From Komagataeibacter sp. FNDCR2 (lineage in GTDB: Bacteria; Pseudomonadota; Alphaproteobacteria; Acetobacterales; Acetobacteraceae), in contig NZ_JAIWOU010000001.1 of assembly GCF_021295395.1 (NCBI RefSeq), positions 561,001 through 625,000 of the forward strand: a stretch of DNA of 64,000 nt, given 5' to 3'. Below are positions 36,940 to 46,424 of the stretch, one piece after another; the stretch's first letter is position 1; the number at the start of each line of letters is the position of its first letter. The position numbers and the translations under genes are program-made. The notes below the pieces were generated by a model. That model worked only from the letters and a program-made list of their open reading frames with translations, was not told where the DNA came from and did no database searches.

Positions 36940-37680
36940 ATGGTATTTATATATATTAACCGGGATAAAGACCAGAAAAGAAGAGAGATTTTTCTTAAAA
37001 ATAATTCCCATTTAAGTAATATAAAACGGTTCAGTGCCATAGATGGTAATACCATCAATAGAGAAGAGCTGATAAGCCGGGGAATCATTACAGAAGATTG
37101 TATTTATATAAATTCCGCAATAGGTAACGCACTGTCACATATTTCATTGTGGAATGGTGTGGTGGAAAGCGGGAAAAGTGCCTGTATATTTGAAGATGAC
37201 GCAGTATTATGCCATAATTTTGAAGAACAGTATGAAAATATACTGAAAAACATCGGTAGCGATTGGGAGATAATACTTTTTGGCTACAATACGGATGCCA
37301 TGCTATATCTGGATGTAGTACCTTCCATTCTGGAAGGAATTTTCACGTTTGATGATGTGAAATTTAAAAAAAATATCGGTCAGTTTTCCAGCCAGAACAT
37401 TACGACCCAACCCATCAAATTGCGGGAAGCATTTGGCCTGTGTGGCTATGCCATATCCCCCAAGGGTGCGGCCAGACTGACCAATGCCATAATACCGCTG
37501 CGGGCTATGGAACTGCATATAAAGATTGTGAACGGACTTTATAAAAATGGAAGTCTGGATAACTTTTTATGTGCGGCTTATCGGGAAATGGACGCTTACT
37601 GCTGTGTCCCTCCCTTATGCGTTTCTGAAAATGACAAGTCCCTGTCCACAATGTGGAACGCCGAGAACTTCTATTACTGA
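36940..37680 (+). CDS. Glycosyltransferase family 25 (LPS-type)
   Basis: This 246-residue protein has the GT25 pattern. The N-terminus is FIYINRDKDQKRREIF, then IKRFSAIDG (~28), GNALSHISLWNGVVESGKS (~63), the metal-binding IFEDDAVL (~86) and a C-terminal GYAISPKGAARL (~167). GT25 members add galactose or glucose to LPS core or to proteins. The gene is clearly AT-rich (Lys/Asn/Ile codons ending in A/T) beside GC-rich hldE, which suggests horizontal gain. No clear Shine-Dalgarno precedes ATG 36940. Confidence 0.82.
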   Translation: MVFIYINRDKDQKRREIFLKNNSHLSNIKRFSAIDGNTINREELISRGIITEDCIYINSAIGNALSHISLWNGVVESGKSACIFEDDAVLCHNFEEQYENILKNIGSDWEIILFGYNTDAMLYLDVVPSILEGIFTFDDVKFKKNIGQFSSQNITTQPIKLREAFGLCGYAISPKGAARLTNAIIPLRAMELHIKIVNGLYKNGSLDNFLCAAYREMDAYCCVPPLCVSENDKSLSTMWNAENFYY

Positions 37681-38905: not shown

Positions 38906-39232
38906 TGCAGCAGAACGTGGTCAGGTGGTGTTTGGCATCCATTTGGGAATGGATTGAACCTGCGTGGTAATGCTGGCTTTCCATCGGGTTCCATATCATT
39001 TCATCCCCCTCGACTGAAGCTCGATAGGGGCAAAAAAGTGCCACCGGAAAACCTTGCCATTTGATATATGGGAAATATCCCGCTCACAGATCTGCGTCTT
39101 TCAGGCGTTTATAAAATATTATTTCATTCCATTATGAAGCCTGATCCTAAATATCTATGCATGCTCCGAAATAACGTGTATTCGCAATTATAAGTAAATT
39201 CATATTCGAGATTAGATGAGGTTAATAGCGAC
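38906..39232. other. Intergenic region with a possible mobile-element scrap
   Basis: These 327 bases hold no convincing gene. Near 39001-39050 there is an imperfect hairpin (CCCCCTCGA...TCGATAGGGG) followed by GGCAAAAAAGTGCC, a sequence type I associate loosely with insertion-sequence ends. No transposase remains. The 3' half is AT-rich and probably carries the promoter of the next gene. Confidence 0.35.
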
Positions 39233-40672
39233 ATGTCTGTTGATCTGACACCCATTTGCGTAAACTCAAGTTTCAGAACATCAAGCACATGGCTTTGGAC
39301 AAAATTTCGGGAAATAGAAAATTTCATAAGCTATGCCGAACCATTTAATGAGGCGCTTAGTGCACCACATCAGAATGTAAGCCGTGGCGACTTTTCGGGC
39401 TGGCGTTCCAACCACCCGCCATCTGCATCGTATTATCTGGAATTTATGCCTTTGATGCAGAAAACGCCCGGCCCGATAATGTCTGGCCAAGGTATAAGCT
39501 ATGACCATTTCATTCCCGCCGGTGGTTTTGATGGAACATTGAGCGAGGAGGAAGTTACCTATCTTTCTACTCTGGTTGACTATGCCCATTCACTGGGCCG
39601 ACGCCCGGCCCTTATGTTCACGCGTTCCCTCGGTCGGGCACGTGCGCTGAAAAAGGCGTTCCCGGGGAAGTCCATATTTCTTCATCGAAACCTTTTCCAT
39701 CAATGGGCCTCCTATTCAGGGCAGGCCGCGGATGGAAATAATTATTTCTTTAATATTCTTGAAATCTGTATCAAATCCAATCGGCATGATCCCGTTGTGG
39801 AAATGTTGGATTTGTGGTTCACACCGCGCGAGCCCGGCCCGTACGATCGAAACAATTTCCTTATTTTCCTTCTTTTTCACTTATACATATATACATCTGC
39901 CTTTACAGCTTCGGATCTGATTATCGATTCCACACGTATTGCAAGTGATAGCACCGCGCGTGAGGAAACCGAGGAAAAACTCAATGCCCTGCTTGGTCAC
40001 CATATATCATTAAAAGACGCCCGCCCGTCATTTGAGGTGTCACAACTGAATATCAAATGTGGCAAACCTGAAATGGATACGGTGGAGCAGTGCCTGAAGC
40101 TAATGCTGCCTGAAAACATGGATCCGCTATGTCGTGATTTTGTGCATCAGGCAAAAAATGATGCCTTTGAAGAGTGGAAGAAGAATGATTTCTATTCCAC
40201 CGGAATGCGCAGTATTCTCACCTCAAAGCGTGCGGAACTTGATTATGTCGTTCATGAACGCAATGGTATGGTCAATCAATGTAAAAATATTTCTCATGAA
40301 CGCGACGAACTCTTCAACAGATACGAAAATATTGCGCGTGAGAAGGACGAATTTTCCAGAAAATATGAAACTGCCTCTCGTGAGCGGGATGAACTGCTGA
40401 CACGATGTGAATACGTTTCTCGAGAATTCAGTGAACTGACCACCCGATACAATAATATCATACATGAACGTAATGAAGCCCTTGATGCCGTTCGTCGCGA
40501 AAGAACCGCAAGAGAACGGTTAGAACAGAAAATTATTAATATCACTGCCGATCATGAACGTATGGCAGGATTGTTGCGCGCTCTGGAAAATGAAAAAGCC
40601 GTTCATTCAAGTGAATCCGCCGCTCTTTCCATGGAATGCCAGGACATGGCCGTAAATTTGAAAAAAAAATGA
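39233..40672 (+). CDS. Sulfotransferase-like protein with a C-terminal 14-residue-repeat coiled coil
   Basis: This 479-residue protein looks like a fusion. Residues 5-240 resemble a PAPS sulfotransferase fold. A P-loop-like NSSFRTSSTWLWTKF is at 11-25, and an RSLGRARALKKAFPGKSIFL to HRNLFHQWASY segment at 131-161 sits where the 3'-phosphate-binding Arg region lies in that fold. Residues 341-424 are six tandem 14-residue units of the form HERDELxxRYENIA, a charged parallel coiled coil. It ends in a Lys-rich tail with no signal peptide or membrane span. Codon use is AT-richer than the genome average. The domain assignment is by motif only; a polysaccharide- or protein-modifying role is inferred from neighbours. 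Confidence 0.6.
   Translation: MSVDLTPICVNSSFRTSSTWLWTKFREIENFISYAEPFNEALSAPHQNVSRGDFSGWRSNHPPSASYYLEFMPLMQKTPGPIMSGQGISYDHFIPAGGFDGTLSEEEVTYLSTLVDYAHSLGRRPALMFTRSLGRARALKKAFPGKSIFLHRNLFHQWASYSGQAADGNNYFFNILEICIKSNRHDPVVEMLDLWFTPREPGPYDRNNFLIFLLFHLYIYTSAFTASDLIIDSTRIASDSTAREETEEKLNALLGHHISLKDARPSFEVSQLNIKCGKPEMDTVEQCLKLMLPENMDPLCRDFVHQAKNDAFEEWKKNDFYSTGMRSILTSKRAELDYVVHERNGMVNQCKNISHERDELFNRYENIAREKDEFSRKYETASRERDELLTRCEYVSREFSELTTRYNNIIHERNEALDAVRRERTARERLEQKIINITADHERMAGLLRALENEKAVHSSESAALSMECQDMAVNLKKK
40253..40504 (+). repeat. Six in-frame 42-bp tandem repeats encoding coiled coil
   Basis: Six consecutive 42-base units begin at 40253, 40295, 40337, 40379, 40421 and 40463. Each encodes 14 residues starting [HR]E[RK][DN]E-like. 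Protein similarity is high but DNA has diverged, especially in units 5 and 6, so the array is not freshly amplified. Repeat length equals two heptads. Confidence 0.8.
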
Positions 40673-40995
40673 GCTTCACCACAGTCAATATTCAGGACTG
40701 CTACAGCAATACGATAGGCGTGCGTGGTCACATCTGGCATGGATGCGGGAAATGCGCGTAAGATGAACATCAGGATAGAACTGAAATCTGGCAATCATAA
40801 ACAGATCCACCCATGACCGAACCGGCACCGTTCAGAAGCATCTTCAACAACGCGGCAAACTGAACACCATCATGATCCCGCATCCAGGGGATTGTGAATA
40901 ATCATGCATGACCATGTTTACCATCGTGCTTATTGCCTGTCCCCCGTTACCGGATCACCATACCTGCCGGACAAGCACGCAAACGGGAACCTGAC
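40673..40995. other. Intergenic region without a supported gene
   Basis: These 323 bases lie between the coiled-coil protein and the next hypothetical gene. No hairpin terminator, repeat or ribosome-site-led frame was found. Confidence 0.4.
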
Positions 40996-41460
40996 ATGAT
41001 TGATCGTGCCCTACAGGCGGCGATGCTCCGCTGCATGGCGGAAAATGGCGGCGCGGCCAATCTGCGTCCCCCACGGGAGGAAGACGAGGCCCGATGCGCC
41101 AGGAACCTCATGGATCTGGAATTGCAGGGATTGTGCAAGGGGGGTGTTACCATTTCCGGCAATGACCTCAGGATCACGGGCGCGAGTACCATCACCAGCG
41201 CGGGCCGCGCCTATCTGGACCGGCCGGACGATATGCATGTGACGCTGAATGGCCCGCAGGCGATCAGGATGCTCCACCAGCGCATTATGGAGGACCCGGA
41301 CCTGACCGATGCGGAGCGGCAGAAGCTCGGCGCATCGCTCGATACGATGCACCCGCTCGCGCTCAAGGCGCTGGGGGAGGAGGTACTGGAACGCGCACTG
41401 GAACGGAGCCCGGACGCCATACCGCTCCTGAAAAAACATACAACCGCGACCGGTACGTAA
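40996..41460 (+). CDS. Hypothetical cytoplasmic protein
   Basis: This 154-residue soluble protein begins MIDRALQAAMLRCMAENGGA. Its middle suggests a small winged-helix-like fold (LMDLELQGLCKGGVTISG, then TITSAGRAYL), as in short DNA-binding or phage-associated proteins. The C-terminal half is helical (LTDAERQKLGASLDTMHP). No family is certain. The start at 40996 is chosen because GGGAACC precedes it; the frame is open upstream to 40933. The composition is back to the GC-rich norm. Confidence 0.6.
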   Translation: MIDRALQAAMLRCMAENGGAANLRPPREEDEARCARNLMDLELQGLCKGGVTISGNDLRITGASTITSAGRAYLDRPDDMHVTLNGPQAIRMLHQRIMEDPDLTDAERQKLGASLDTMHPLALKALGEEVLERALERSPDAIPLLKKHTTATGT

Positions 41461-41896
41461 AACAGGCCCGGTCACGGCGCGCCTGTAATACCGGCCGCCA
41501 CGGAGGTCCGTGTTCGTCTGGTTGCGTAATGTCCGGTGTCAGTTCATCCTCGACGATGCAGCGGTCTGGGGACCCACATATTCATTTGAATGAATAATTA
41601 TGAAATATATCCGTTTAACAGATATATCTCATTCCGATAAAAATTAAGTATTATAAAGAATACACAGCAGGGCAAGACCAGTTCCAAAAGAGTAGGGTAA
41701 TTTATCGCATATCTGCCCGGCTTCCGGTGATCTGCGCTTTTACTGTCATGTCTGCAATAAACCTTATCGTCTGCCAGAAATGGCATGGCCCATACAATAT
41801 TTACATGACAGATATTCAGCGTTCAGCAGTCGGGACGAAATGCACACGATGCGCCACTTCACGGATACTTGCCTGTGCAACAGGGAACAGGCCGCC
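41461..41896. other. Intergenic region, AT-rich, upstream of the MscS gene
   Basis: About 430 bases. Around 41581-41700 it is AT-rich and contains a small ATATATC/GATATAT inverted pair (41605-41612 and 41621-41627) of doubtful meaning. It probably holds the channel gene's promoter. The first ~115 bases upstream of 41897 are also an open continuation of the channel frame. Confidence 0.4.
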
Positions 41897-45917: not shown

Positions 45918-46424
45918 TTACCGCATCTGGGATGCCACGGTTGCGCTGACAACGCCCGCGATCACACCCGTGGTCAGGGCGGTCAGCAGGTACTGGTTGC
46001 CGTAGCGCATCCATTGATATCCGGGTGGCGGGGCGGAAAGGCCACGGTAACGCTGCCAGTCATTGACCACCCACCGGCTGTTACGCGGGCCATCATAGCG
46101 GTCCCCACGCCGCCAGACGCGGTTCATGTCAACGTGGTCATAGCCGTTGCCGCCACCACCGCGCCGGGGTGGCGGGCTGTTCATGCGATGGCCCATTCCG
46201 CCACCCGGCCCCAGCAACCTGCCCGGCCCGCCCGGCCCACCCCGACCGGGACCGGAATTCGGACCCGCACCATAGCCCTCTCCGGGGCCATCTCCGGGGC
46301 CGCCCCCGGGTCCGCCCCCGGGTCCGCCCTGCGGCCCCTGCTGGCCAAAAGGCTGTGCGTAAACCGGGGAAGCAATGCACAGCACGCTGGCCATGATGAT
46401 TGCCATGGTGGATCTGGTTTTCAT
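45918..46424 (-). CDS. RcnB-family periplasmic protein with a Gly/Pro-rich linker
   Basis: This 168-residue protein has a signal peptide (MKTRSTMAIIMASVLCIASP, cut after VYAQ). Residues ~26-75 are low complexity (repeated GGPGGGPGD units). The RcnB core follows: SRWVVNDWQRYRGLSAPPPG, YQWMRYGNQYLLTAL, and a final hydrophobic TTGVIAGVVSATVASQ. RcnB in E. coli tunes nickel/cobalt efflux; most homologues are uncharacterised. Start 46424 has AGGA six bases upstream and begins the signal peptide. It lies upstream of mntH on the same strand, hinting at a metal link. Confidence 0.82.
   Translation of the reverse strand: MKTRSTMAIIMASVLCIASPVYAQPFGQQGPQGGPGGGPGGGPGDGPGEGYGAGPNSGPGRGGPGGPGRLLGPGGGMGHRMNSPPPRRGGGGNGYDHVDMNRVWRRGDRYDGPRNSRWVVNDWQRYRGLSAPPPGYQWMRYGNQYLLTALTTGVIAGVVSATVASQMR

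Follow-up and report, generated by a model that had tools for sequence, protein, structure and literature searches.

A sulfotransferase-like head on a predicted coiled-coil stalk in Komagataeibacter sp. FNDCR2 and its mainly alphaproteobacterial relatives

Results

The ORF and its repeat array

The window, i.e. the whole stretch of 64,000 nucleotides analyzed here, carries an ORF of 479 codons (39233..40672, + strand) whose product is made of a sulfotransferase-like domain followed by a long C-terminal helix. Within this helix, residues 341-424 (40253..40504, +) form six units of 14 residues which are, in order, HERNGMVNQCKNIS, HERDELFNRYENIA, REKDEFSRKYETAS, RERDELLTRCEYVS, REFSELTTRYNNII and HERNEALDAVRRER, units 1-5 being clear and unit 6 clearly weaker. 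Their hydrophobic residues are mainly found at positions 6, 10 and 13, i.e. with a heptad-like 4-3-7 spacing, and position 3 is Arg or Lys in five of the six units. Across the array, 25 of the 70 positions compared are identical at a lag of 14, a value reached by none of 20,000 full shuffles and by none of 20,000 shuffles preserving the composition of each heptad phase (mean 11.4, maximum 24). Since the latter never reach 25/70, the 14-residue period goes beyond ordinary coiled-coil composition. Both the ORF and the six units had been proposed in the initial annotation of this DNA and are borne out here. At the DNA level, the units are degenerate (10-27 of 42 bases shared by pairs of units) and Tandem Repeats Finder did not report any array over them, which argues that the repeat array is old. 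The sole tandem array called in the window lies at 46282-46329 and consists of four copies of the 12-base CCGGGGCCGCCC inside a Gly/Pro-rich ORF.

The last helix of the head is predicted to continue without a break as a single helix of 181 residues (298-478; 40124..40666, +), which projects from the domain like a stalk. Fully helical and unbent, this stalk would measure about 27 nm (by arithmetic, 0.15 nm per residue). An extended coiled coil is thus predicted after the modifying head, an assignment based on sequence periodicity and on a monomer model, and the continuous helix is consistent with the earlier suggestion that the coiled coil is an oligomeriser or a scaffold. The protein ends in this coil, with no membrane helix and no glycosyltransferase (GT) module beyond it. 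A run of nine A is located just before the stop codon (40661..40669, +) and the frame that would be reached by a slip at this run is open for about 32 more residues; this run could be a slippage site or the trace of a lost C-terminal part.

Motifs of the head domain

Residues 1-315 (39233..40177, +) constitute the sulfotransferase-like domain, as delimited from the AlphaFold2 model and from its matches with structures of PAPS sulfotransferases. This domain harbors: (i) a 5′-PSB-like loop, NSSFRTSSTW (residues 11-20; 39263..39292, +), whose R15 and T19 are invariant, (ii) an invariant Glu36 (39338..39340, +), located 21 residues past R15 and directly after the strand 31-35, which is a candidate catalytic base, and (iii) a 3′-PB-like segment, HRNLFHQWAS (residues 151-160; 39683..39712, +), including R152 and S160. 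R15, S18, T19, E36, R152, Q157 and S160 are invariant in the 22 aligned rows (window protein included). In a second and wider alignment of 15 rows, R15 is found in 15/15, E36 is invariant and S160 is nearly invariant (90% or more). The positions initially assigned to NSSFRTSSTW (11-20) and HRN (151-153) are therefore confirmed. The Gly of the RxG/KSG PSB motif is replaced by Ser (RTS) in the window protein, and a Walker A motif (GxxxxGK[ST]), looked for by reading the sequence, is absent at this loop.

According to a review, sulfotransferases are recognized by a basic residue of the PSB loop (Lys or Arg), a PB-helix Ser and a base that is either His or Glu (PMC11625862). R15 and S160 correspond to the PSB Lys/Arg and to the PB-helix Ser of the PAPS sulfotransferase superfamily. 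Furthermore, R15 and E36 have the same 21-residue spacing as Arg78 and Glu99 of TPST1; no paper stating this spacing was found when the literature was searched for numbered catalytic residues of TPST.

Sequence searches

Searches done with the window protein did not recover any sulfotransferase: Pfam and NCBIfam gave nothing but coiled-coil families whose low scores stay below the respective cut-offs, the PDB gave eight matches with E values of 0.41 or worse, and the phage collection gave no match at all. The PDB also gave no match when it was searched with the profile of 15 rows. Matches with PF13469 (Sulfotransfer_3) were obtained for the aligned domains of eight of 15 relatives at E values up to 1 (best 1.8e-4), for only two of the 22 members of a second, mostly different set at E values up to 0.1 (best 4.4e-4) and for five of ten members scanned singly (best 22.3 bits, all under the curated cut-off of 27), one of these ten matching PF17784 below its cut-off. 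The gathering cut-off of PF13469 was not reached by any member of the two sets nor by the window protein.

A family profile of 42 rows (mixing two alignments that share some proteins, rows identical over the first 120 residues being dropped) scored 34.7 (E 4.5e-4) against 19 PF13469 proteins, compared to a maximum of 19.6 for 20 column shuffles and to 15.6 for the reversed profile. The two profiles align in register, the arginine of PRSGST facing R15 and the RDP...S pair facing R152 and S160; since the 19 proteins were retained from 24 by leaving out five without a plain PSB pattern, this comparison favors a match at the PSB loop. The hhalign probabilities are low: 33% with the 42-row profile, and 17% and 1.3% with the 22-row profile under two settings.

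The genome encodes an APS kinase and a CysQ, both above curated cut-offs, so that the host, like many bacteria, should have both PAPS and the means of clearing it. Outside of the window, it also carries a separate PF13469 sulfotransferase gene above the cut-off (a frame of 653 codons), and PF13469 matches were found in 21 of 40 genomes searched.

Predicted structure

AlphaFold2 (22 rows) gave a pLDDT of 84.7 for the whole protein and of 88.6 (pTM 0.89) for residues 1-330 alone, residues 41-70 being poorly predicted in both models. The predicted domain has a P-loop-type alpha/beta fold with a PSB strand-loop-helix and a PB strand-turn-helix. When the isolated domain was compared with known structures by VIA, ranks 1-10 were all PAPS sulfotransferases (Z 10.1-11.6, coverage to about residue 320), TPST1 being the top match (5wrj_A, Z 11.6, rmsd 3.6 Å, 208 aligned residues); as a yardstick, models without a clear match usually peak at Z 7 to 8, a few helical ones at 14. 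The first P-loop kinase was an APS kinase (Z 9.8, spanning 3-255), and others, including shikimate and adenylate kinases, came after it with a Z of at most 9.8; the matches of P-loop kinases stop near residue 257 and the sulfotransferases lead them by about 2 Z units. With Foldseek, ranks 1-23 of the isolated domain were sulfotransferases (E 0.01 and up). For the whole protein, the best values were a Foldseek E of 2e-3 and a VIA Z of 11.8.

PAPS sulfotransferases are thus the best matches of the predicted model in the structure search that had been proposed as a check of the initial annotation. The PAPS sulfotransferase that it claimed holds for fold and motifs, given the structure, the weak PF13469 matches of relatives and the profile alignment in register, whereas its assignment as an enzyme is a prediction. 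Overall, the model and motifs support a head with a PAPS sulfotransferase fold and the motifs of the superfamily, its enzyme activity being predicted.

Genomic context

The G+C content is about 45% for the gene and 62% for the window, with 39.5% for the neighboring GT25 gene (36940-37680), 58% for the AGE epimerase gene and 63% for hldE. The nearest congener (G001, whose hldE is 88% identical) keeps the order hldE-GT25-AGE-ORF 40933-41780 ORF-44365 ORF without the window gene: the segment located between the two aligned flanks (38931..40893), an accessory slot holding the gene, is replaced by 329 unrelated bases. In five further congeners, AGE adjoins hldE, lying downstream of it in four and being divergent in the fifth; the stretches examined did not show any GT25 match. 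The window gene did not have any match at the hldE/AGE locus in the six congeners inspected. A 70%-identical counterpart of the GT25 gene is found beside hldE in one of these six. Since the nearest congener keeps the neighbors without the gene, the window gene is best regarded as accessory and its slot as variable, and its function cannot be read from its neighbors. A role tied to an operon with GT25 and AGE is unsupported, hldE-GT25-AGE occurring without the gene in this nearest congener. The argument previously drawn from these two neighbors for a role in surface modification is weak, the closest of the six congeners inspected having both neighbors and the other five AGE, in each case with no match to the gene at this place.

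Relatives and their tails

A relative is carried by 20 of 299 genomes of the taxonomic family (source genome included), and the gene was found in none of the 18 other genomes of the genus. A scan of contigs revealed 22 loci, mostly from alphaproteobacteria, with single matches outside in Nitrosovibrio, Paenibacillus, one acidobacterial bin and one actinobacterial bin. Three of the 22 loci were left out of the tail count, one at a contig end (L040) and two with interrupted frames (L041 and L048). In 13 of the 19 assessable relatives, the head is followed by a tail of 80 residues or more, the longest counting 696; in the other six, the tail is shorter than 41 residues. The coil is therefore not needed for the enzyme, since these six relatives are almost tail-less. 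The initial annotation saw no standard family with this pair of domains, which is correct as far as Pfam and NCBIfam are concerned. An unnamed family nevertheless shows the combination repeatedly (13 of the 19 assessable relatives). In a thin literature search, none of the papers listed was, by its title, on the fusion of a sulfotransferase head with a coiled coil.

We tested 16 tails, i.e. these 13 and those of the window, Methylocystis and Ensifer proteins, three of them after trimming of TPR or GT parts or of unread bases. A hydrophobic period of 3.5 residues was detected at 5% or better in 12 of them and was not seen in the other four (L036, L046, L049 and L050). Internal repeats beyond a heptad-preserving null were found at 1% or better in 11 of the 16 tails; their period is divisible by seven in seven tails (14, 28 or 35) and is 38, 45, 18 or 24 in the other four. 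Repeats are not conserved: the period is 14 in the window protein versus 38 in a 65%-identical relative from Gluconacetobacter johannae. The latter protein is extended by about 125 residues that match TPR weakly, below the cut-off, and this TPR part did not show any significant match with the sequence downstream of the window gene. Directly downstream of the G. johannae gene, a second sulfotransferase-like gene is present (L035:11977-12585; PF03567, E 6e-4, below the cut-off).

Several relatives deserve mention. WP_330085188.1, a “hypothetical protein” from a Methylocystis iwaonis plasmid, has a head 43% identical to that of the window protein and a tail made of a 28-residue repeat whose unit is unlike that of the window protein; GT and FkbM genes are found within the same 25 kb of the plasmid. 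The Ensifer protein (L025, 1248 aa) has the order head-coil-GT, with the GT at the C-terminal end. The longest repeat coil seen belongs to Sphingomonas glacialis (L043:9755-13060), with a tail of nearly 700 residues and a 28-residue repeat. Another relative of 992 aa (L113:88-3066) has, besides its head and an additional C-terminal part, stretches judged coil-like and TPR-like by eye; it did not match Pfam at an E value of 0.01. Seven tails (L010, L012, L013, L019, L038, L045 and L049) carry an SxSWRxTxPxR-like motif 11-30 residues before the C-terminus, and a similar motif is found on a separate ORF of the other strand near the Caulobacter relative (L050). This end is possibly a docking or membrane motif; a literature search with five variants of the motif did not find any paper.

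The surroundings of the relatives were sampled by taking up to four of the nearest called genes per side (133 proteins of 18 loci, gene calls being mechanical). At 1e-5, eight of the 133 proteins match Glyco_trans_1_4 and nine match Epimerase. Against a background made of all host genomes but that of L055 (17 of 18; 398 matches over 92 Mb), about 0.6 Glyco_trans_1_4 matches were expected. The corresponding Poisson P of about 3e-7 assumes a gene density and is a guide only, since neighbors are clustered and E-value scales differ.

Discussion

We propose, with a probability of roughly 60%, that the window protein is a PAPS-dependent glycan sulfotransferase whose head is borne by a coiled-coil tether or spacer, and that it belongs to an unnamed, mainly alphaproteobacterial family. 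The head would transfer sulfate from PAPS to a glycan of the cell envelope or of the extracellular space, probably on the cytoplasmic side of the membrane. The coiled coil, which continues the last helix of the domain, would dimerise the enzyme, and the stalk would hold the catalytic head away from a partner or from the membrane at the site of glycan assembly. This proposal is in keeping with the predicted fold, the invariant motifs, the recurrence of head and tail, the presence of APS kinase and CysQ, the GT-rich neighborhoods of relatives and the GT fusion of the Ensifer protein. However, the window protein does not match any sulfotransferase model, the hhalign and Foldseek scores are weak, six of 19 relatives are tail-less, four of 16 tails are devoid of heptad signal and the neighbors in the window are not specific to the gene.

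The main alternatives concern the meaning of the coil. It might be an oligomeriser or a passive spacer devoid of positional meaning, the substrate being a glycolipid, the LPS core or a protein. The lack of conservation of repeats and tail lengths (14 versus 38 in the G. johannae relative) and the tail-less relatives fit such a passive coil, which we nevertheless consider somewhat unlikely because the GT-rich neighborhoods, one GT fusion and the SxSWRxTxPxR-like end of seven tails hint at docking. A particular form of our proposal would be a sulfate-capping chain terminator, in which the head would act on growing polysaccharides at their non-reducing end, the coiled coil would be a ruler and the stalk length would set the minimum chain length. 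For O-polysaccharides whose assembly depends on an ABC transporter, chain terminators are located at the far end of an extended coiled-coil ruler, polymerising GT modules being carried by the other end of the coil, sometimes C-terminally, or by a partner (PMC11231755). The Ensifer protein has the same order, tail lengths vary widely among relatives, 11 of 16 tails have internal repeats, and the window genome encodes an ABC-2 permease (PF01061) beside KpsE- and KpsD/Wza-like proteins (named by eye). On the other hand, this permease locus is 1.2 Mb away from the window gene, the window protein has neither GT nor membrane helix, some relatives are tail-less, and the cap-reading domain Wzt_C (PF14524) has no match in the window genome and was found in only two of 20 genomes searched, one of these two matches being interrupted by a stop. 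We therefore regard a capping ruler as unlikely. The broader idea of a new class of sulfate-capping terminators, in which gain and loss of repeats specific to each lineage (periods of 14, 28, 35, 38 and others) would set glycan length, is equally speculative.

Two other explanations question the protein itself. The APS, shikimate and adenylate kinases found at Z 9.8 and lower and the lack of Pfam match would be expected from a P-loop kinase-like or inactive protein that is not a sulfotransferase. Such a protein is very improbable considering that Walker A is missing, that the PF13469 motifs are in register and that sulfotransferases come first in the ranking and extend over a larger part of the domain. 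It seems just as doubtful that the gene is a decaying import that lost a C-terminal TPR part by a frame slip at the run of nine A: although the G. johannae relative is longer by about 125 residues with weak TPR matches and the other frame is open for about 32 residues, the 479 codons are open, the motifs are intact, many relatives end after the coil and no significant match to the TPR part was seen downstream.

These data point to an unnamed sulfotransferase-like protein family that is missed by current profiles. According to one review, sulfated polysaccharides have been reported from only six bacterial genera (PMC11625862). The members of this family would combine sulfotransferase-like heads with a coiled-coil design that serves in other systems to control glycan length. 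Should the stalk be a ruler, its fast-changing repeats would provide natural length variants for testing.

Comparison with known systems

The sulfotransferase domains of TPST1/2, CurM and olefin synthase are the best structural matches over the whole domain, with 9-13% identity. Like the window protein with its E36, they have a Glu located soon after the second strand, which plays a catalytic role in TPST. The solved sulfotransferase domains of TPST1/2, CurM and olefin synthase are not known to carry a coiled coil. The window protein shares with Sulfotransfer_3 (PF13469) a PAPS-type fold, the Arg of the PSB loop and the Arg...Ser 3′-PB pair in register, but it differs by the lack of a match, by RTS instead of RXG, by an extra stretch at about residues 45-100 and by the C-terminal coil. 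It is on its RXG motif that NodH is placed in Sulfotransfer_3, according to the review cited above (PMC11625862).

The terminators WbdD, WbbB and ORF7-O4 (PMC11231755) resemble the proteins of this family by a modifying or transferring enzyme located at one end of a long coiled coil, sometimes with a GT at the other end. Their heads are a methyltransferase-kinase or a Kdo transferase, whereas that of the window protein is sulfotransferase-like. Since the Wzt cap-reader domain is absent from the window genome, an exact copy of the WbdD system is disfavored. The Ensifer protein displays the terminator-type order, head-coil-GT, with a sulfotransferase-like head.
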